The notes beneath the pieces are model-generated. The model was given only the letters and a program-made list of their open reading frames with translations, was not told the origin of the DNA and searched no databases. This document shows, piece after piece, positions 19,749 to 33,913 of a DNA stretch of 38,498 nt; the first letter of the stretch is position 1, and the number at the start of each line of letters is the position of its first letter. The stretch lies in NCBI GenBank assembly GCA_020723165.1, contig DYJK01000021.1:1-38498 (forward strand), written 5' to 3'. The stretch comes from Melioribacter roseus. GTDB lineage: Bacteria; Bacteroidota; Ignavibacteria; Ignavibacteriales; Melioribacteraceae. The position numbers were made by a program, and so were the translations under genes.

Positions 19749-19770
19749 GGCGGCGGTTGCCGCCTTTTTT
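19749..19770. terminator. Intrinsic terminator after the chaperone island
   Basis: Arms GGCGGC (19749-19754) and GCCGCC (19759-19764) enclose a GGTT loop and are followed by six T. An AAAAAGAA tract precedes the stem, so it can also act on the minus strand, where the T9SS cargo gene ends at 19769. It is the strongest intrinsic terminator in the window. Confidence 0.9.
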
Positions 19771-22627
19771 ATTTTATTAAAACCATCTTACGTGTTTGTG
19801 AAAAGTTGCTAGTGATTAATTGATAAAAATAAACTCCGCTCGATAAATTCTTTCCGTCAAAAACAACCTTATAATTCCCGGGTGATTGTTTTTCGTTAAC
19901 AAGTGTAGTTACTTCTCTACCGAGTATGTCGTAAACTTTCAACGTAACGACCCCACCCTCAGTCCCTCCCCTTACTAAGGGGAGGGATATGGGAGGGGTT
20001 GGTATTGTATATGTAATTGTAGTTGTTGGATTAAACGGATTCGGGTAATTCTGTGATAATTGAAATTGGTTTGGTAGTAACAAATTATTATCATCGATAT
20101 CAGTAGGAAATTTCGAGTAGTAAAAATCTCTAATAGAACTTGCGAGTCTTTTCAGTTCTGTTACACTGTTCTTATTACTGGTACCCTTTGTTGCTAATAC
20201 AGCTATAACAATTTCTTGAGTATCCTCAGAAGCAAGGTTGAATGGCCCGGTCGTAATATAATATTTTCGATCAGCGGGTTGTATTGACCCGAACATTGTA
20301 GTCCCGTCAATCCAGCCGGTGCCGGTTTCCGGATCACCATAAACATGTTTTACTGTTGCCTTCCCGGTTGTTGGATCAATTATAGCTGAGCCGTTGTTGT
20401 TCAATCCTTTCATCAAATTAACATAGTCCATTTTATTTGCCGGATCCCTCGGTAATATGGGATCATTCTTATAATTGGCACCGAATGCTGTTAGTGCAAG
20501 ATTTTTATATCCGTTTTTTCTCTTTCCATTAGAGATTGCCGATTCGTTCTGCTCTCCTTGAACGATTGGACCTTGCACAATCATGTGTCCCATTGCCGGA
20601 GGTGGAAAGCCGTATATGTCTTCAAATTCATACGCATTCCATGTAAATCCTAAATTGAGTGTTGTGTCACACCCAACAAAATCATCGTGACTATAACCGA
20701 AATCATTATCGGCAAAGTAGCACAAATACATATCTTCAATATTATTGCTGCTTTTGTTTATCAATAGATATCTTTTGAAAAGAACATCATCAAGGAAATT
20801 ATTTTGTTTATAACCATAAATTGAAAGTTGAACCTCTATACCTATTGGCAATGATTCGAAATCGTTATTAGTATATTCGTGCGACATATCATTCATTACC
20901 ATCCAGTGGAATTCATCTGCATCGGGTTTATCACCATCTTCTACATTGTATATACCATCGTAATTATTATCAATCCACTGGGCGCCAAGATCGATGGGCC
21001 AATTTTCATAATCGTGTTGATAACGTGATTTGATCGTTCCATCGGGTAACGCTTCCCAATTTTTTCTGAATCGCCATGACTGGAAGATTGGATTAGTTGG
21101 ATCGGCAGCAGAATCGGGTGTAATGATATTTCCGGCTTGAAGATTAGTAAGATAATGTTTACCGCCAACTCTTATCTCGTTATTTACTTTTCCAAACCAA
21201 TATAATCCATCATCATAGGTTGCACTTATCTTTGCTGATTCTCCACCGGGCCAATACATTACCTCATGATACTCATTCGGTGATCGGCTTTTACCTACTT
21301 CATAGTATAATCTCAGGTTGTTGATCGTTATAAAATTTTGATCTTGGGGAATAATTCTAAATATCCTGGATTCTACAGCGTATTGTGGATAATCAATAGA
21401 GGTGATTTGTATCTTACAATTGTTAGATATTTTATCTGGGATGACCCACGAATAAAGACCGATAACAGCATCGGTAGAATTATCAATTACTCCCCAAGAA
21501 GTACCATCATCAGATGAAAATTCAATTATAACTTTTCCCGGTAATCCACTCGACCATTTTATATATACTGAAGTTTTAACTTTAACAGAATCAAACATAA
21601 TTTCATGCTTACTTCTTGAGATACTGGCAGATTTGAGAAAGAATGAGACACCATTCTGTGCAAATTTTCTAAGTTCATTACTAATACCAATAAAACCGTT
21701 ATCGAATGTTGGAGTGACGTTTGTAAAGTACCCAAAGCCCGAATGATGATTTTTCAGTATTAGTCCTTCATCATTTATTGAAATATAATGTCCATCCCAA
21801 TTTGAGAAACAGTGATAAACACCGTCATATGTTCTAATCAAATTTGCTTCAGAATCAATGAAATTGTGATTTATTTTCCAAGTAGTTAAGCCCTCTAGGT
21901 TCATTTTGATGAAATTGTGACGAGTATTAATAATTATGTTATTATTTGTACTGGAAATAATATTTAGGATTCTATCTTGTAATGACATAAGCTCAGTGTA
22001 GTTTAAATTTTCATCTAAGTATCCTAAATACCAACCAGTTCCTATTATTATTTTATTATTTAATTCAATCATTGGCATTTTGTTCCATACATAATCGGAA
22101 AACATAATATTATTTGTTCGTACAATATCCAAATCTTGATTAAGAATTATGAAATTAAAAGTCTTTGAGTTATTACTTTTTACAACTAAAAGTATATTCC
22201 CGTTTGATAACGGAAAAAGCTGTAATGAAATGACCGGATAAAATAATTTTTTTACTTTGATAATTTCACCATAGAAATTCAATTTGCTTATAGAGATGGA
22301 ATCAGTATAATTTTCATCCTCCACACTCCACGCAATGTAATAGTTGGATAAAGATTTTATAAGATTACTGCAGTTTGTTATATGGTGTTTATTATTATTA
22401 GTTATTATTTCTTTATCCCAAAGTAAATTCCCATACTTATTTACACGGGTTATATGAGTCGAATAAGATGTGTCGGAGTATGCCACCAAATAAGTCTCGA
22501 ATAAATCGCATATTACAGATTGTCCCCAACTTATATCTGGGAACTGAGTGATGAACGAATTACTCTGTCCAAATGATATGTTTACAAATAAAGATAGTAT
22601 GATAGGTAAGTATAAATACTTTTTCAT
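19769..22627 (-). CDS. Secreted protein with T9SS type A sorting domain
   Basis: 952 residues. A signal peptide (about 1-20, MKKYLYLPIILSLFVNISFGQ) leads to a beta-rich N-terminal region (about 25-330) that reads like a propeller of uneven repeats. An Ig-like stretch follows (about 345-430, PGKVIIEFSSDDGTSWG). The large middle region (about 430-840) contains SWRFRKNW, DNNYDGIYNVEDGDKPDADE and DFVGCDTTLNLGFTWNAYE. I recall similar segments in long Ignavibacteria secreted proteins of unknown function. The C-terminal sorting domain starts near residue 851 (NYPNPFNPTTTITYTI) and ends GVYFYQLITSNFSQTRKMVLIK-like. That tail targets the protein to the SprA translocon. Residues 878-893 are an extra segment encoded by a palindrome and are described separately. 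No enzyme motif was recognised. The 5' two-thirds looks more AT-rich than its neighbours. Confidence 0.88.
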   Translation of the reverse strand: MKKYLYLPIILSLFVNISFGQSNSFITQFPDISWGQSVICDLFETYLVAYSDTSYSTHITRVNKYGNLLWDKEIITNNNKHHITNCSNLIKSLSNYYIAWSVEDENYTDSISISKLNFYGEIIKVKKLFYPVISLQLFPLSNGNILLVVKSNNSKTFNFIILNQDLDIVRTNNIMFSDYVWNKMPMIELNNKIIIGTGWYLGYLDENLNYTELMSLQDRILNIISSTNNNIIINTRHNFIKMNLEGLTTWKINHNFIDSEANLIRTYDGVYHCFSNWDGHYISINDEGLILKNHHSGFGYFTNVTPTFDNGFIGISNELRKFAQNGVSFFLKSASISRSKHEIMFDSVKVKTSVYIKWSSGLPGKVIIEFSSDDGTSWGVIDNSTDAVIGLYSWVIPDKISNNCKIQITSIDYPQYAVESRIFRIIPQDQNFITINNLRLYYEVGKSRSPNEYHEVMYWPGGESAKISATYDDGLYWFGKVNNEIRVGGKHYLTNLQAGNIITPDSAADPTNPIFQSWRFRKNWEALPDGTIKSRYQHDYENWPIDLGAQWIDNNYDGIYNVEDGDKPDADEFHWMVMNDMSHEYTNNDFESLPIGIEVQLSIYGYKQNNFLDDVLFKRYLLINKSSNNIEDMYLCYFADNDFGYSHDDFVGCDTTLNLGFTWNAYEFEDIYGFPPPAMGHMIVQGPIVQGEQNESAISNGKRKNGYKNLALTAFGANYKNDPILPRDPANKMDYVNLMKGLNNNGSAIIDPTTGKATVKHVYGDPETGTGWIDGTTMFGSIQPADRKYYITTGPFNLASEDTQEIVIAVLATKGTSNKNSVTELKRLASSIRDFYYSKFPTDIDDNNLLLPNQFQLSQNYPNPFNPTTTITYTIPTPPISLPLVRGGTEGGVVTLKVYDILGREVTTLVNEKQSPGNYKVVFDGKNLSSGVYFYQLITSNFSQTRKMVLIK
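19951..19998. repeat. Palindromic element inside the T9SS sorting-domain coding region
   Basis: The core at 19963-19987 has perfect 12-base arms, TCCCTCCCCTTA and TAAGGGGAGGGA, around a single C. Outer arms CCCCACCC (19951-19958) and GGGAGGGG (19991-19998) pair with one mismatch. It encodes residues about 878-893 (PPISLPLVRGGTEGGV), which interrupt the usual sorting-domain strand order between TYTIP and TLKVYD. The length and position suggest a 48-base in-frame insertion. Confidence 0.75.
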
Positions 22628-28339: not shown

Positions 28340-29701
28340 TTGGAAATAAAAAATTCAATTTTAGATTTAATAGGAAACACGCCTTTAATAAAACTTAAAA
28401 AAATAAATAAAGGACTTAAGCCACAGATATATGCAAAATTGGAATCATCGAATCCGGGCGGTAGCGTTAAAGATCGTATCGGTTATGCGATGATATTAGA
28501 TGCAGAAAAGCGTGGGGTGCTGAAACCTGGCGGAACAATTATAGAAGCAACCAGCGGTAATACCGGAATCGGTCTCGCGCTTACAGCCGCAGTTAAAGGT
28601 TACAAATGTTTATTTGTTTGTACGGAAAAAGTCAGTTCCGAAAAAATAAACTATCTCAAAGCGTTAGGTTCTGAAGTTATTGTAGTCCCTAATACTTACG
28701 AACCGGATCATCCGGATTATTATGTAAACGTTGCACGAAGAATTTCCGAAGAAACTCCAAATTCATTTTTTGCGTATCAGTATGGAAATCCTTCCAATCC
28801 CGAAATGCATTACAATACAACCGGTCCCGAAATTTGGAAACAAACCGAAGGGAAGATTACTCATTTTGTTTCTAGTATTGGAACCGGTGGAACTATTAGC
28901 GGTACCGGCAGATACTTAAAAGAAAAAAATCCGAACATACAAGTTATTGGTGCCGATCCTCTCGGTTCAATATTCAAACATTACAAGGAAACCGGGGAAG
29001 TAATTAAAGGTACACCATACCTGGTAGAAGGTATCGGGCAAGATTGTTTACCGGCTAATGTTCATTTCCAGTATATAGATAAAATAATTAATATCAGCGA
29101 TAAAGAATCTTTTGCAGCCGCTAGAAGGTTAACAAAAGAAGAAGGAATTTTTTGCGGCGGCTCTACCGGGACAATTGTCCACGTTACACTCGAACTTGCT
29201 AAGAACCTTTCGGAAAATGATTTGATTGTATTTATCGTTTGCGATATTGGTGAAAGATATTTATCTAAAATGCATTCTGTTGAGTGGCTGCGTGATAATA
29301 GAATGCTCGATATTGAAATAAAAATTTTGAGAGACATTTCATATGCAAAGAAACGCAAAGGAAATGAAGATATAGTTTATGTTCATGATAATACAATAGT
29401 TAAAGATGCTATCAAAATTATGAACGAAAGAGGATTCTCTTACATACCGGTTCTAAATGAATTTTTAAGACCGGTCGGGAGCTTGAGAGAAAGCCGGTTA
29501 ATTGCTAAAGTACTTGAAGATCAATCCTTGTTAAATAACACGGTTAAGAATGTGATGGAAGAAAGTTTCTTAGTACTCGATGCGAAATCAAGCATCACAG
29601 AAGTAAGAAGGGCATTAAAAGATGCACATGCAATTTTAGTCTCGGATTTTGGTAGGATCATAGATATCATAACAAGATATGACTTAATTGATTATGAATA
29701 G
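28340..29701 (+). CDS. Cystathionine beta-synthase with C-terminal CBS domains
   Basis: 453 residues. The catalytic PLP domain (about 1-320) has Lys44 in NPGGSVKDRIGYA, ATSGNTGIGLA, SSIGTGGTISGTGRYLKEKNP, VEGIGQDCLP and FCGGSTG. A tandem CBS pair (about 335-453, VHDNTIVKDAIKIMNERG and VMEESFLVLDAKSSITEV) probably senses an adenosyl ligand, as in other cystathionine beta-synthases. It makes cystathionine from serine and homocysteine, or cysteine from sulfide. The start is TTG at 28340 with AAGGAAG just upstream. The nearby ATG at 28333 is out of frame, and no in-frame ATG precedes conserved sequence. It is followed by a cystathionine gamma-enzyme gene, which completes transsulfuration. Confidence 0.88.
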   Translation: MEIKNSILDLIGNTPLIKLKKINKGLKPQIYAKLESSNPGGSVKDRIGYAMILDAEKRGVLKPGGTIIEATSGNTGIGLALTAAVKGYKCLFVCTEKVSSEKINYLKALGSEVIVVPNTYEPDHPDYYVNVARRISEETPNSFFAYQYGNPSNPEMHYNTTGPEIWKQTEGKITHFVSSIGTGGTISGTGRYLKEKNPNIQVIGADPLGSIFKHYKETGEVIKGTPYLVEGIGQDCLPANVHFQYIDKIINISDKESFAAARRLTKEEGIFCGGSTGTIVHVTLELAKNLSENDLIVFIVCDIGERYLSKMHSVEWLRDNRMLDIEIKILRDISYAKKRKGNEDIVYVHDNTIVKDAIKIMNERGFSYIPVLNEFLRPVGSLRESRLIAKVLEDQSLLNNTVKNVMEESFLVLDAKSSITEVRRALKDAHAILVSDFGRIIDIITRYDLIDYE

Positions 29702-29779
29702 ATCAACACGATAAAATTCAAAATCCAAAATTTTTTTAATTCATACTTCGCAAATCGTAAATAGTTTTTAGGGGTTAAT

Positions 29780-30913
29780 ATGGGATTCTCAACAGATGCT
29801 ATACATGCCGGACAAACTCCGGATCAAGTAACCGGTGCAGTATCAACGCCAATTTATATGACATCTACTTATGCACAAGATGAACTCGGTGTTCATAAAG
29901 GATATGAGTACGGGCGAACGCATAATTTAACAAGGCAATCACTTGAGAAAAATATTGCAACACTTGAAAAAGGAAAATATGGGATTGCATTTGCATCGGG
30001 TCTATCTGCGGAAAATGCAATACTCGGATTGATGAGAGCCGGTGATCATGCGATTGTATCGAACAATGTTTATGGAGGTACTTACCGTTTGTTCGAGTTG
30101 ATAATGAAAGACTATGGATTAACCTTTTCATGGGTGGATACTACAATTGTTTCAAATATTGAGAATGCTATTAGCTCAAACACAAAAATGGTTTATATTG
30201 AATCACCAACCAATCCGATGCTGAATCTTACAGATATTGAAGCAGTTTCTAAAATTTGCAGAAAGAATAATTTAATATGTGTTGTTGATAATACATTCAT
30301 GACGCCATTTTTTCAGAATCCTCTTGCACTTGGTGCTGATGTTGCTATTCACAGTACCACAAAATATTTGAACGGACACTGTGATATTGTTGGCGGAATC
30401 CTTGTTACCAATGATGATAAACTCCATGAACGGTTCAGATACTTGCAAAATGCTGTGGGTGCAATTCCTTCTCCATTCGATTGCTGGCTAACGTTGCGTT
30501 CTACAAAAACACTCGCCGTAAGAATGAAGCAGCATCAAGAAAATGCGTTAAAGATTGCGCAGTATCTTGAAAAACATCCACATGTAAAAAAAGTTATATA
30601 TCCCGGTTTGAGATCTCATCCTCAATATGAATTAGCTGAAAAACAAATGAGCGGATTCGGTGGAATGGTTTCTGTCGAATTCAAAGATTTTAGTACGGCA
30701 AAAAAGGTATTGAATAATGTAAAAGTTTTCACTCTTGCCGAAAGTCTCGGAGGAGTTGAAAGTTTGGTTTGCCACCCGGCATCAATGACTCATGCATCCG
30801 TACCGAAAGAAGAAAGAGAGAAATACGGGTTAACAGATAGCATAGTTCGTTTTTCGGTAGGCATTGAAGACGTCGAAGATTTGATTGCCGATATAGAACA
30901 AGCGTTATATTAA
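29780..30913 (+). CDS. Cystathionine gamma-synthase/gamma-lyase family enzyme
   Basis: 377 residues. A fold-type I PLP enzyme of Cys/Met metabolism. Seen: Tyr44 and Arg46 in YEYGRTHN (YxR motif), SGLSAENA, Tyr98 in VYGGTYR, Asp170 in VVDNTFMTP, PLP-lysine Lys195 in HSTTKYLNGH, and the C-terminal SLGGVESLVCHPASMTH. The YGGT motif is typical of MetB and CGL, whereas methionine gamma-lyase has YGCT. Together with the CBS upstream, the likely role is cystathionine cleavage to cysteine or its synthesis from activated homoserine. The direction cannot be told. The stop codon is one base from the RAYT-unit palindrome. Confidence 0.88.
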   Translation: MGFSTDAIHAGQTPDQVTGAVSTPIYMTSTYAQDELGVHKGYEYGRTHNLTRQSLEKNIATLEKGKYGIAFASGLSAENAILGLMRAGDHAIVSNNVYGGTYRLFELIMKDYGLTFSWVDTTIVSNIENAISSNTKMVYIESPTNPMLNLTDIEAVSKICRKNNLICVVDNTFMTPFFQNPLALGADVAIHSTTKYLNGHCDIVGGILVTNDDKLHERFRYLQNAVGAIPSPFDCWLTLRSTKTLAVRMKQHQENALKIAQYLEKHPHVKKVIYPGLRSHPQYELAEKQMSGFGGMVSVEFKDFSTAKKVLNNVKVFTLAESLGGVESLVCHPASMTHASVPKEEREKYGLTDSIVRFSVGIEDVEDLIADIEQALY

Positions 30914-30914
30914 T

Positions 30915-30937
30915 GTAGGTCGAAGCAATGCTTCGAC
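30915..30937 (+). repeat. REP-like palindrome, left copy
   Basis: A GTAG head (30915-30918) is followed by a near-perfect palindrome with arms GTCGAAGCA and TGCTTCGAC around one A. GTAG heads are the recognition feature of known REP elements. It begins one base after the stop codon of the preceding enzyme gene. The same 24 bases, T plus this element, recur at 31650-31673 in the same orientation. Confidence 0.85.
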
Positions 30938-30952
30938 AAGAATAAGAAAACA

Positions 30953-30980
30953 AAAACTAATGAAACTGGCTCTTAGTTTT
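30953..30980 (+). repeat. Hairpin just before the RAYT start
   Basis: Arms AAAACTAA (30953-30960) and TTAGTTTT (30973-30980) are perfect complements over a 12-base loop. The second arm ends 5 bases before the RAYT ATG, and no Shine-Dalgarno is visible there. It could limit translation of the transposase or be a subterminal structure of the unit. Confidence 0.5.
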
Positions 30981-30985
30981 ACAAA

Positions 30986-31645
30986 ATGAATGAAATAAAA
31001 ATATTCTACAAAAGAAAACTCCCTCATTATCAACCACCCGGATATACTTTCTTTATAACATTCCGATTATATGCTACAATGCCGAAAGAAATAGTTGACA
31101 GATACAAATTGTTGAAAGAAACTCAATTAAAAAATCTAAACAATTTTGAAAACAAGAAAATTAGATCGGAGAAATATTTAGCATTTAAGAAAAATTATTT
31201 TAAGCTATATGACGAATACTTAGATAAAGCTTCTTATGGACCGAAATGGCTGCAAGATAGAAAAATTGCCGATATCGTTAAGAAAGCACTGCACTACAAT
31301 GATGGTATTAAGTATAATCTCATAGCTTATACGATTATGCCAAACCATGTTCATTTAGTTATTGAACCAATAATAGAAAAATTTGTAGGTCGAACAGATT
31401 GTTCGACCTACATTGTAACAAGTATTCTTAAGTCATTAAAGTGGTACACTGCAAGAGAGTGCAATAAAATTTTGAATCGTTCAGGTGCTTTTTGGCAACA
31501 TGAAAGTTATGATCATGTTGTACGAAATTCGGAATCATTAATTCGTATTGTTAAATATGTCTTGAACAACCCGGTAAAAGCCGGCTTAGTTTCTGATACC
31601 GAAGAATATATGTTTAACTATGTAAATGAAAAGTTAATTAATTAA
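30986..31645 (+). CDS. REP-associated tyrosine transposase (RAYT)
   Basis: 219 residues. A Y1-type HUH single-strand nuclease of the IS200-like superfamily that cuts and joins REP palindromes. Seen: RKLPHYQPPGYTFFITFRL start, the metal-binding HUH motif PNHVHLV (His121, His123), GAFWQHESYDHVVRN, and VKYVLNNPVKAG. Tyr191 there lines up with the catalytic Tyr115 of the E. coli enzyme (YIYINPVKHG). There is no TnpB nearby. Two REP-like palindromes flank the gene, and a third lies within it: codons 134-142 (VGRTDCSTY) are a 27-base palindrome. Related proteins I recall run directly from the LVIEP block to the SLKSYTA-type helix, so about ten residues appear inserted. The motifs are intact, so it may still work. 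It sits between two sulfur-metabolism genes and looks like an acquired unit. Confidence 0.9.
   Translation: MNEIKIFYKRKLPHYQPPGYTFFITFRLYATMPKEIVDRYKLLKETQLKNLNNFENKKIRSEKYLAFKKNYFKLYDEYLDKASYGPKWLQDRKIADIVKKALHYNDGIKYNLIAYTIMPNHVHLVIEPIIEKFVGRTDCSTYIVTSILKSLKWYTARECNKILNRSGAFWQHESYDHVVRNSESLIRIVKYVLNNPVKAGLVSDTEEYMFNYVNEKLIN
31385..31411 (+). repeat. Perfect 27-base REP-like palindrome inside the RAYT gene
   Basis: Arms GTAGGTCGAACA (31385-31396) and TGTTCGACCTAC (31400-31411) surround GAT. The first eight bases after GTAG match the flanking elements (GTCGAA), so it is one of the same family. It spans exactly nine codons in frame (Val134 to Tyr142) and does not disrupt the reading frame. 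Confidence 0.9.
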
Positions 31646-31650
31646 AAATT

Positions 31651-31673
31651 GTAGGTCGAAGCAATGCTTCGAC
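31651..31673 (+). repeat. REP-like palindrome, right copy
   Basis: It has the same GTAG head and arms GTCGAAGCA/TGCTTCGAC as the left copy, in the same orientation, and begins 5 bases after the RAYT stop codon. Sequences outside the shared 24 bases differ from the left copy. The following gap to 31795 shows no other feature I can name. Confidence 0.85.
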
Positions 31674-31795
31674 TAAACCAAACCTTAAATAAAATTATCG
31701 AAACTGCCGCTTCGTTCTGCATTTCATTAAAAATAAATCCTTAGAATTGCACGAGTTATTTCAGTAATTTTGATATGCAAATTGGGAGAGACATC

Positions 31796-33121
31796 ATGGC
31801 AAATCAAATTAAAGAAAAAGAAAAAACAAATAATGTAGATGATACTAAATATTCGATGGATACACATATCATCTACGGAAAAAACATATCTGATAAGTGG
31901 GATTACTCACATCATGTAACATCCCCGATATCATCATCAACAACTTTTAGATTAGATTCCGTTGAACGGGGTGCACAAGGTTTTATGCAGTTTGCAAATA
32001 CAGAAGCATTTGGCGATAAAGCACCAATTTTGATTTACGACCGGCTTGGTGAACCAAACAAAGATATACTTGAAGAAAATCTTGCTTACGTTGAAAAAGG
32101 CGAAATGGCTGTTAGCTTTTCAAGCGGTATGGGCGCTATATCAGGCATATTAGGAATTTTAACTTCGACCGGCGATGAAATTATTTCTCACAATACATTA
32201 TACGGCTGCACATTATCACTTTTAACTAATTGGTATCCGCGCTATAATATTAAATGGAACCCGATTGATTTAACAAATCCGGATAATATCTATAATGCTC
32301 TGAGTCCTAAAACAAAAGTGATATACTTTGAAACGCCGGCTAATCCGAATATCGAAATAATTAATATTGAGGCAATTAAAAAAGTAACTGATGAAATCAA
32401 TAAAACAAGAGACGAAAAAGATAAAATCCATATCGTTATTGATAATACATTTGCAACTCCATTCTGCCAAAGACCTATTGAACACGGTGCGGATTTCGTT
32501 GTGCATTCATTAACAAAAGGAATAGGCGGTTACGGTACCGATATGGGCGGAGTAGTAATCGGCAAGAAAAAATTTCAAGATATGCTTCATTTGTATAGAA
32601 AAGATTTCGGTGCAGTGTTAAGTCCTAAAAGTGCCTGGTCAATTTTAACGTACGGTTTACCATCGCTTGCCTTACGCCAAAGACAGCAAATTAGAACCGC
32701 AATGCGTGTTGCAGAATTTCTTAACGCCCATCCTAAAATTGCATATGTAAACTATCCTGGATTGCCTGACTTTAAATATTATGAAATTGCCAAAAAGCAG
32801 ATGATTGATTTCAACGGCAATTTTGCACCGGGAAGCATGATCTACTTTGTATTAAGAGGCGGTACACCGGCAGAATCTAAAGACAATGGCAGAAAATTTA
32901 TGGACTATGTTGCCGATCATGCTTATACAATGACGCTGGCTGTTTCACTCGGTCATACCAGGACGTTGATTGAGCATCCGGCTTCCATGACACATTCTGT
33001 TGTACCTCCGGAGAAATTAGCTGAAAGAGGTATTGATGCCGGGGGGATTAGATTAGCTATGGGCCTGGAAAATCCTGATGATATTTTACTTGATCTTGAT
33101 GAATCATTGAAAGTGATCTAA
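31796..33121 (+). CDS. Methionine gamma-lyase-like PLP enzyme
   Basis: 441 residues from ATG 31796, which is preceded by GGGAGAG at good spacing. The in-frame ATG at 31775 has no ribosome site. Fold-type I PLP enzyme of Cys/Met metabolism. Seen: YDR (YxR motif), SSGMGAISG, LYGCTLSL, VIDNTFATPF, PLP-lysine Lys241 in HSLTKGIGGYG, and SLGHTRTLIEHPASMTHSVV. The YGCT cysteine corresponds to Cys116 of characterised methionine gamma-lyase and is absent from MetB/CGL, so degradation of methionine to methanethiol, ammonia and 2-oxobutyrate is the best guess. O-acetylhomoserine sulfhydrylase is the alternative. It is longer than the usual 400 residues because of its N-terminus and an insert before the YxR motif. 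A terminator follows. Confidence 0.8.
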   Translation: MANQIKEKEKTNNVDDTKYSMDTHIIYGKNISDKWDYSHHVTSPISSSTTFRLDSVERGAQGFMQFANTEAFGDKAPILIYDRLGEPNKDILEENLAYVEKGEMAVSFSSGMGAISGILGILTSTGDEIISHNTLYGCTLSLLTNWYPRYNIKWNPIDLTNPDNIYNALSPKTKVIYFETPANPNIEIINIEAIKKVTDEINKTRDEKDKIHIVIDNTFATPFCQRPIEHGADFVVHSLTKGIGGYGTDMGGVVIGKKKFQDMLHLYRKDFGAVLSPKSAWSILTYGLPSLALRQRQQIRTAMRVAEFLNAHPKIAYVNYPGLPDFKYYEIAKKQMIDFNGNFAPGSMIYFVLRGGTPAESKDNGRKFMDYVADHAYTMTLAVSLGHTRTLIEHPASMTHSVVPPEKLAERGIDAGGIRLAMGLENPDDILLDLDESLKVI

Positions 33122-33137
33122 AAAGTCCTACCATATT

Positions 33138-33163
33138 TCCCTCCGCTATGGGAGGGATTTTTT
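33138..33163 (+). terminator. Intrinsic terminator after the methionine gamma-lyase-like gene
   Basis: TCCCTCC (33138-33144) pairs with GGGAGGGA (33150-33157) across a short loop and is followed by six T (33158-33163). It separates the sulfur cluster from the pgeF-ppx run. Confidence 0.85.
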
Positions 33164-33175
33164 AATACCGGATAA

Positions 33176-33913
33176 ATGGAAATTATCAGAAGTAAATTAT
33201 TCGAAAATTTCCCCGAAATTATTTTTGGGATGAGCACTAAAATTGGTCTTAATAGAACTGATCCTTTCTATTTTAACCTTTCATTAACTGTCGGCGATTC
33301 GGCTGCAATCGTTAAAGAAAACCGTAACGCGTTCTTCAATAAACTCGGATTAGATTCAAATCAAATTGCCTATCAAAAACAGATTCACAGCGATATTATA
33401 AGGTTTGTAGAACACTCTGGGCTGCTCGGTGAAAGTGATGCAATGATCACCACAAAACAGAATATTGGGTTAGCAATCTCCACTGCTGATTGTACACCGA
33501 TTTTTATATATGATTCTAAAAACAAAATTGTTGCAGCAGTTCATTCCGGTTGGCGTGGCACGCAAAAACAAATACTCAAGAAAACTCTTGATAACATGGT
33601 AAATAATTTTAATTCTAAAACTGAGAATCTTCTTGTGTATGTTGGTCCATCGATCTCACAGAAAAATTATGAAGTTGGAGAAGAAGTTGCTGTTCAATTC
33701 GATCAAAAATATATTATGAATAAAAACGGTAAGTTGTATTTAGATGTATTAATGGCAAATGTTGATATGCTGAACAAATGTACGGTACCAAAAAATCAAA
33801 TAGAAATTTCGCATTTATGTACATACAATGAAAAAGAATTACTGCACTCATTCCGCCGTGATGGTAGTTTATCGGGCAGATCACTCGGAGTTATAGCGAT
33901 GAAAGGTGATTGA
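33176..33913 (+). CDS. pgeF: Multicopper-like laccase-domain purine nucleosidase family protein
   Basis: 245 residues of the YfiH/PgeF/LACC1 family. Members are described as purine nucleoside phosphorylase/adenosine deaminase enzymes or as removing mis-incorporated L-serine from peptidoglycan precursors. The metal or catalytic residues are present: His71 in QKQIHSD, Cys106 in STADCTPIF and His123 in AVHSGWRGT. The length is normal for the single-domain form. It starts 13 bases after the terminator and its stop overlaps the transporter start. The precise reaction is unsettled in the family. Confidence 0.9.
   Translation: MEIIRSKLFENFPEIIFGMSTKIGLNRTDPFYFNLSLTVGDSAAIVKENRNAFFNKLGLDSNQIAYQKQIHSDIIRFVEHSGLLGESDAMITTKQNIGLAISTADCTPIFIYDSKNKIVAAVHSGWRGTQKQILKKTLDNMVNNFNSKTENLLVYVGPSISQKNYEVGEEVAVQFDQKYIMNKNGKLYLDVLMANVDMLNKCTVPKNQIEISHLCTYNEKELLHSFRRDGSLSGRSLGVIAMKGD

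Follow-up and report, generated by a model that had tools for sequence, protein, structure and literature searches.

An in-frame REP palindrome inside a RAYT transposase gene of Melioribacter roseus, and its relation to TnpAREP subclass 2.4

Few repeats are as common in bacteria as REP elements, whose mode of spread is unsettled. The closest described relatives of the locus analysed here are the TnpAREP transposases of subclass 2.4, for which REPs inside the transposase gene have already been reported (Quentin et al. 2018, PMC6006769). In that subclass a variable insert between β3 and αC holds the REPs with the reading frame kept, and was judged to be a peripheral extension of little effect. 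The subclass motifs are NH[IFV]H, WQ and YIxNNP, and its double-foot REPs have the form GT[AG]G...C[TC]AC. REPs have also been found in many unrelated genes (Di Nocera et al. 2013, PMC3733652). The structure 4er8 represents E. coli TnpAREP (RAYT group 2) bound to a REP hairpin.

We analysed a window of 38,498 nucleotides from Melioribacter roseus (the whole of positions 1 to 38,498 of contig DYJK01000021.1). A unit at 30914-31673 consists of a Y1/HUH transposase gene between two identical GTAG-headed hairpins, with a third hairpin inside the gene (Table 1). The flanking REP, TGTAGGTCGAAGCAATGCTTCGAC, is composed of a GTAG head and a 19-nt palindrome proper, GTCGAAGCAATGCTTCGAC, and has one foot only. 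Its two copies lie in direct orientation, whereas REPs flanking RAYT genes were described as inverted (Nunvar 2010).

Table 1. Coordinates of the RAYT unit and its REP elements in the window
Feature	Position	Strand	Remarks
5' flanking REP, (T)GTAG-GTCGAAGCAATGCTTCGAC	30914..30937	+	single foot; directly follows the stop codon that ends the upstream gene (Cys/Met metabolism)
RAYT/TnpAREP gene	30986..31645	+	219 aa; Y1/HUH transposase; best fit subclass 2.4 (RAYT group 4)
HUH motif codons H121-V-H123	31346..31354	+	H121 and H123 invariant in alignments
Internal double-foot REP	31384..31412	+	13-bp arms, 3-nt loop; between HUH strand (121-128) and helix 140-163
Catalytic tyrosine codon Y191 (YVLNNP motif)	31556..31558	+	invariant in alignments
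3' flanking REP	31650..31673	+	identical to the 5' copy; stop codon 4 nt upstream

The internal element, GTAGGTCGAACAGATTGTTCGACCTAC (31385-31411), fills exactly codons 134-142 and encodes VGRTDCSTY, with the left GTA read as Val and the right TAC as Tyr; an outer T/A pair extends it to 29 nt. The initial annotation of this stretch had recognised the two identical 24-base flanking elements and the in-frame palindrome, all of which were recovered, and had called the third palindrome related to the others and perfect over 27 bases. The relation holds for the head and lower stem (GTAG GTCGAA...TTCGAC), but the upper stems differ (CAGATTG inside, GCAATGC in the flanks) and the three loop nucleotides are unpaired. 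The internal hairpin has feet at both ends (GTAG...CTAC), as against one end in the flanking hairpins. Its arms are the longest of all perfect inverted repeats (loop 0-4) in the window. Synonymous-codon shuffles of the gene, with protein sequence and codon use held constant, reached arms of at most 12, and none of 1000 reached 13. The pattern GTAGGTCGAAN{3,12}TTCGAC had 4 matches in the window, compared with 0.00 expected in shuffles. As RNA, the internal hairpin is predicted to fold with -20 kcal/mol (z -7); a search of the window against Rfam gave 0 matches.

Judged from its sequence and predicted fold, the gene is a RAYT/TnpAREP. The protein matches the Y1_Tnp family model above its cut-off, and NF047646 (REP_Tyr_transpos) with E 1.3e-18 and 67 bits, under the 80-bit cut-off of that model. 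The HxH histidines and the single catalytic tyrosine are intact, and GTAG-headed REPs stand on both sides of the gene. An AlphaFold model with a mean pLDDT of 90.7 has a Y1 transposase fold near TnpAREP, and its best structural match is 4er8 (Z 14.8, rmsd 2.5 Å over 138 residues, 21% identity). The model places the REP-encoded residues between the HUH strand and the following helix; they fall in its lowest-confidence internal stretch (residues 131-140, mean pLDDT 72).

With E. coli TnpAREP and its REPtron, the window RAYT shares the fold, the HUH and tyrosine residues and the GTAG head; the E. coli enzyme, however, belongs to another subclass, its REPs are bulged, and an internal REP is not described for it. 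Subclass 2.4 is the best fit by motifs and loop insert. The gene encodes NHVH, WQ and YVLNNP (V in place of I), is flanked by GTAG REPs, and carries between HuH and Tyr, that is between β3 and αC, a double-foot REP that leaves the frame intact. Nothing essential differs from the published subclass; particular to this unit are its Ignavibacteria type, a minimal insert consisting of a single 27-nt double foot, the direct flanks, and a host genome without dispersed copies. The REP inside the window RAYT is a further example of the feature reported in 2018 for this subfamily, so that its presence within a RAYT can no longer be called unusual, as it had been in the initial annotation. Intragenic GTAG/CGTC REPs and the Rickettsia palindromic elements (PMC3733652) are likewise short palindromes read in frame within protein genes, but their hosts are unrelated genes whereas here the host is the REP's own transposase. 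The heads in the window are GTAG, not the CGTC tag of the Rickettsia elements.

Homologues were gathered within the order, across the phylum and in a broad set of genomes; 163 non-redundant genes had a loop that could be parsed. The commonest spacing from HxH to FWQ is nine residues below that of the window gene (L=36 versus 45), as had been anticipated for homologues lacking the palindrome, and the second RAYT of the same genome is also without the nine-residue segment. A REP was present in the loop of 23 homologues, all of them among the 64 with long loops and none among the 99 with short ones. The density of REP-like hairpins was 3.2/kb for the loop region, 1.8/kb for the flanks and 0.27/kb for the remainder of the gene. 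The internal REPs vary among genes in position, type and number (1 to 3). In 11 genes the distance from the right foot to the end of the loop is exactly 6 nt. Of 17 left heads, 16 have GTA in codon phase, and of 22 right feet, 17 have TAC in phase. The phase in which GTAG would give a stop is closed to it, and the other open phase is left unused. This survey, together with the family models and the fold match to 4er8, bears out the earlier reading of the locus as a RAYT unit with an in-frame REP-type palindrome.

The internal REP sequences differ between genes and track their own flanks. In 18 genes the arm identity between internal and own flanking REPs averaged 8.34/10, compared with 5.99 ± 0.33 when permuted (0 of 20000 permutations as high, p about 5e-5); this test, like the co-occurrence test below, counts related genes or genomes as independent, which makes its p-value optimistic. 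Arm identity with permutation replaced an exact longest-common-substring score, which was biased to long loops. By arm identity the internal copies of L154, L157 and L224 did not clearly match their flanks, yet the L157 copy aligns with its flanks at 81-85%. In the window gene the match is only moderate (7/10 arm positions), and the flanking REP of another RAYT, L153, is closer. In a homologue tree built without the loop, the clade holding the window gene (94/99 support) has internal REPs in 17 of 21 rows. Presence and absence of the internal REP require at least 7 changes over the tree, 4 of them forced by supported branches. The window RAYT and its sister L152, 58% identical, differ in REP type; internal REPs therefore turn over faster than the protein.

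Three homologues, L065, L066 and L277, carry an internal REP pair that is 94-96% identical over its whole length, spacer included (81, 85 and 52 nt), to a pair outside the gene beginning 6-12 nt past the stop codon. The spacer is gene-specific, differing between L065 and L066, and in both of these the outside copy has a one-base indel that would break the frame if it lay inside the gene. This near-identity indicates recent copying or homogenisation within the unit, with selection for frame acting on the inside copy. A flank of L073 carries 124 nt of adjacent coding sequence, reaching into the helix, and that of L074 carries 52 nt; partial gene duplication therefore also contributes. The L073 stretch, homologous to helix coding sequence of its own gene, lies in the upstream flank, and L169 has 41 nt of loop sequence in its downstream flank; both suggest that parts of the RAYT gene were duplicated next to it. 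A search of open-access literature found no paper in which internal and flanking REPs were treated as evolving in concert.

The flanking palindromes had been expected to recur elsewhere in the genome. A pattern search of the host genome found no flanking REP beyond the two beside the gene, and the closest further site, with 3 mismatches, belongs to another family; in place of many dispersed copies the host has two flanking and one internal. The expectation thus failed for this genome, but the identification as REPs stands because related genomes contain the two palindrome classes together, as do the surroundings of a related RAYT. The order was represented by 164 genomes; 3 of these have the internal class (4 sites in G063 and 1 in G001 among them), all within the 6 that carry the flank class (hypergeometric p 2.8e-5, or 7.6e-4 leaving out the window genome). 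The G001 copy, GTAGGTCGAACAGTCTGTTCGACCTAC, is the window's internal double-foot REP standing free between genes in a genome of the same genus, and L153 has both hairpin types around one gene, including a double-foot REP resembling the window's internal hairpin. Because of the L153 arrangement, the co-occurrence and the free G001 copy, we read the internal and flanking hairpins as REP types of one RAYT lineage.

In G001 the two neighbour genes of the window RAYT lie 230 nt apart with no RAYT between them, and in other relatives they are likewise adjacent without it, so that the unit most likely arrived in the window's lineage. The intergenic sequence of the empty site in G001 has diverged and does not fix the exact left boundary of the insertion. 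Since the host lacks dispersed copies, the unit may have come in recently or may be a relic. The surrounding region (28340-33913) holds same-strand sulfur amino-acid genes, namely a cystathionine beta-synthase-like gene and two Cys/Met PLP enzymes, where relatives show a short gap only.

Other repeats were observed in the same genome. A separate dispersed element of ~80 nt, with about 15 copies (L001-L010, L015-L020) and the consensus tgtgaaaattGTAGGTCGAAAC..GTTTCGACCATTTTGGGCAAATACAATTGTGAATT, takes short-hairpin and nested-hairpin forms and lies in no ORF above 70 aa; its stem is that of the REP at the L059 RAYT in another genome. The palindrome TCCCTCCCCTTACTAAGGGGAGGGA at 19963-19987 is in frame in a minus-strand ORF (19769-22627), within a sorting domain for type IX secretion (TIGR04183), where it is flanked by 'TTTITYTIPTP' and 'VVTLKVYDILG'. 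It has 8 exact and 3 near copies in the genome, 9 of the 11 (the window's, L349-L355 and L357) at the same site of this domain in different proteins, and is read two ways (PPISLPLVRGG and PPLSKGRDMGG). L358 lies outside any such domain, and L356 gave no call.

The explanation we favour, and regard as reasonably probable taken as a whole, is that the loop is tolerant of insertions and holds a REP of the RAYT's own, which undergoes homogenisation with the copies next to it. The unit is a REPtron, a subclass-2.4 RAYT gene between two REPs, and the internal palindrome is one more REP belonging to this system; it is of the double-foot type and lies in a flexible surface loop that joins the HUH strand to helix αC. 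A REP, or an inverted REP pair, could have reached this loop through single-strand cleavage and strand transfer by the RAYT itself, and only in-frame, stop-free versions would have survived. Repeated renewal or homogenisation from the REPs at the gene ends would let the loop copy follow the RAYT's changing REP type. In the window gene an inverted pair probably shrank by central deletion to one double-foot hairpin, and the nine encoded residues are probably tolerated rather than needed. Counting against this explanation are a site and frame fixed across lineages beyond the needs of a purely random neutral passenger, the window gene's moderate match to its own flanks, and the lack of dispersed host REPs.

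The fixed position and frame, the clade-wide match to the flanks and the predicted stable RNA hairpin would all suit self-regulation, in which the internal REP is kept as an mRNA hairpin or a putative RAYT binding and cleavage site lowering transposase expression or activity. We consider this unlikely: 4 of the 21 clade members and every short-loop homologue manage without an internal REP, its position, number and type vary, and any REP insertion brings a hairpin anyway. That the in-gene REP serves as a protected master copy for flanking and dispersed REPs, linking REP type to the transposase, is rather improbable; the near-identical internal and 3' pairs of L065, L066 and L277 are consistent with it, as are the flanks with coding sequence in L073 and L074, which mean either gene-to-flank copying or partial gene duplication, but only the duplicated gene fragments reveal in which direction copying went, and many RAYTs with REPs have no internal copy. 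Chance insertion of a REP from another RAYT's family would account for an upper stem unlike the own flanks and better matched in L153; we hold it to be rather improbable as well, since L153 itself has both types around one gene, the two co-occur across genomes, and they share head and lower stem. For a chance palindrome in ordinary coding sequence, only the ORF itself speaks; given the shuffles, the recurrence at the same site in homologues and the intergenic copy elsewhere, we assign it practically no likelihood.

Beyond the published account, the present analysis adds a quantitative extension: loop enrichment, cognate match, near-identity inside and outside the gene, a fixed site and an intergenic copy. 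A RAYT with its own REP inside couples enzyme and substrate in one reading frame, and lets the coding copy of a REP be set directly against non-coding copies nearby; with the nearly identical inside and outside pairs of L065, L066 and L277, REP copying or homogenisation becomes directly testable. It is a doubtful possibility that the loop REP of subclass 2.4, instead of being a passive scar, is a maintained cis-linked element, kept cognate with the RAYT's REP type by repeated exchange at one codon-precise site and acting as self-target or master copy. If so, the transposase's substrate would be written into the transposase.
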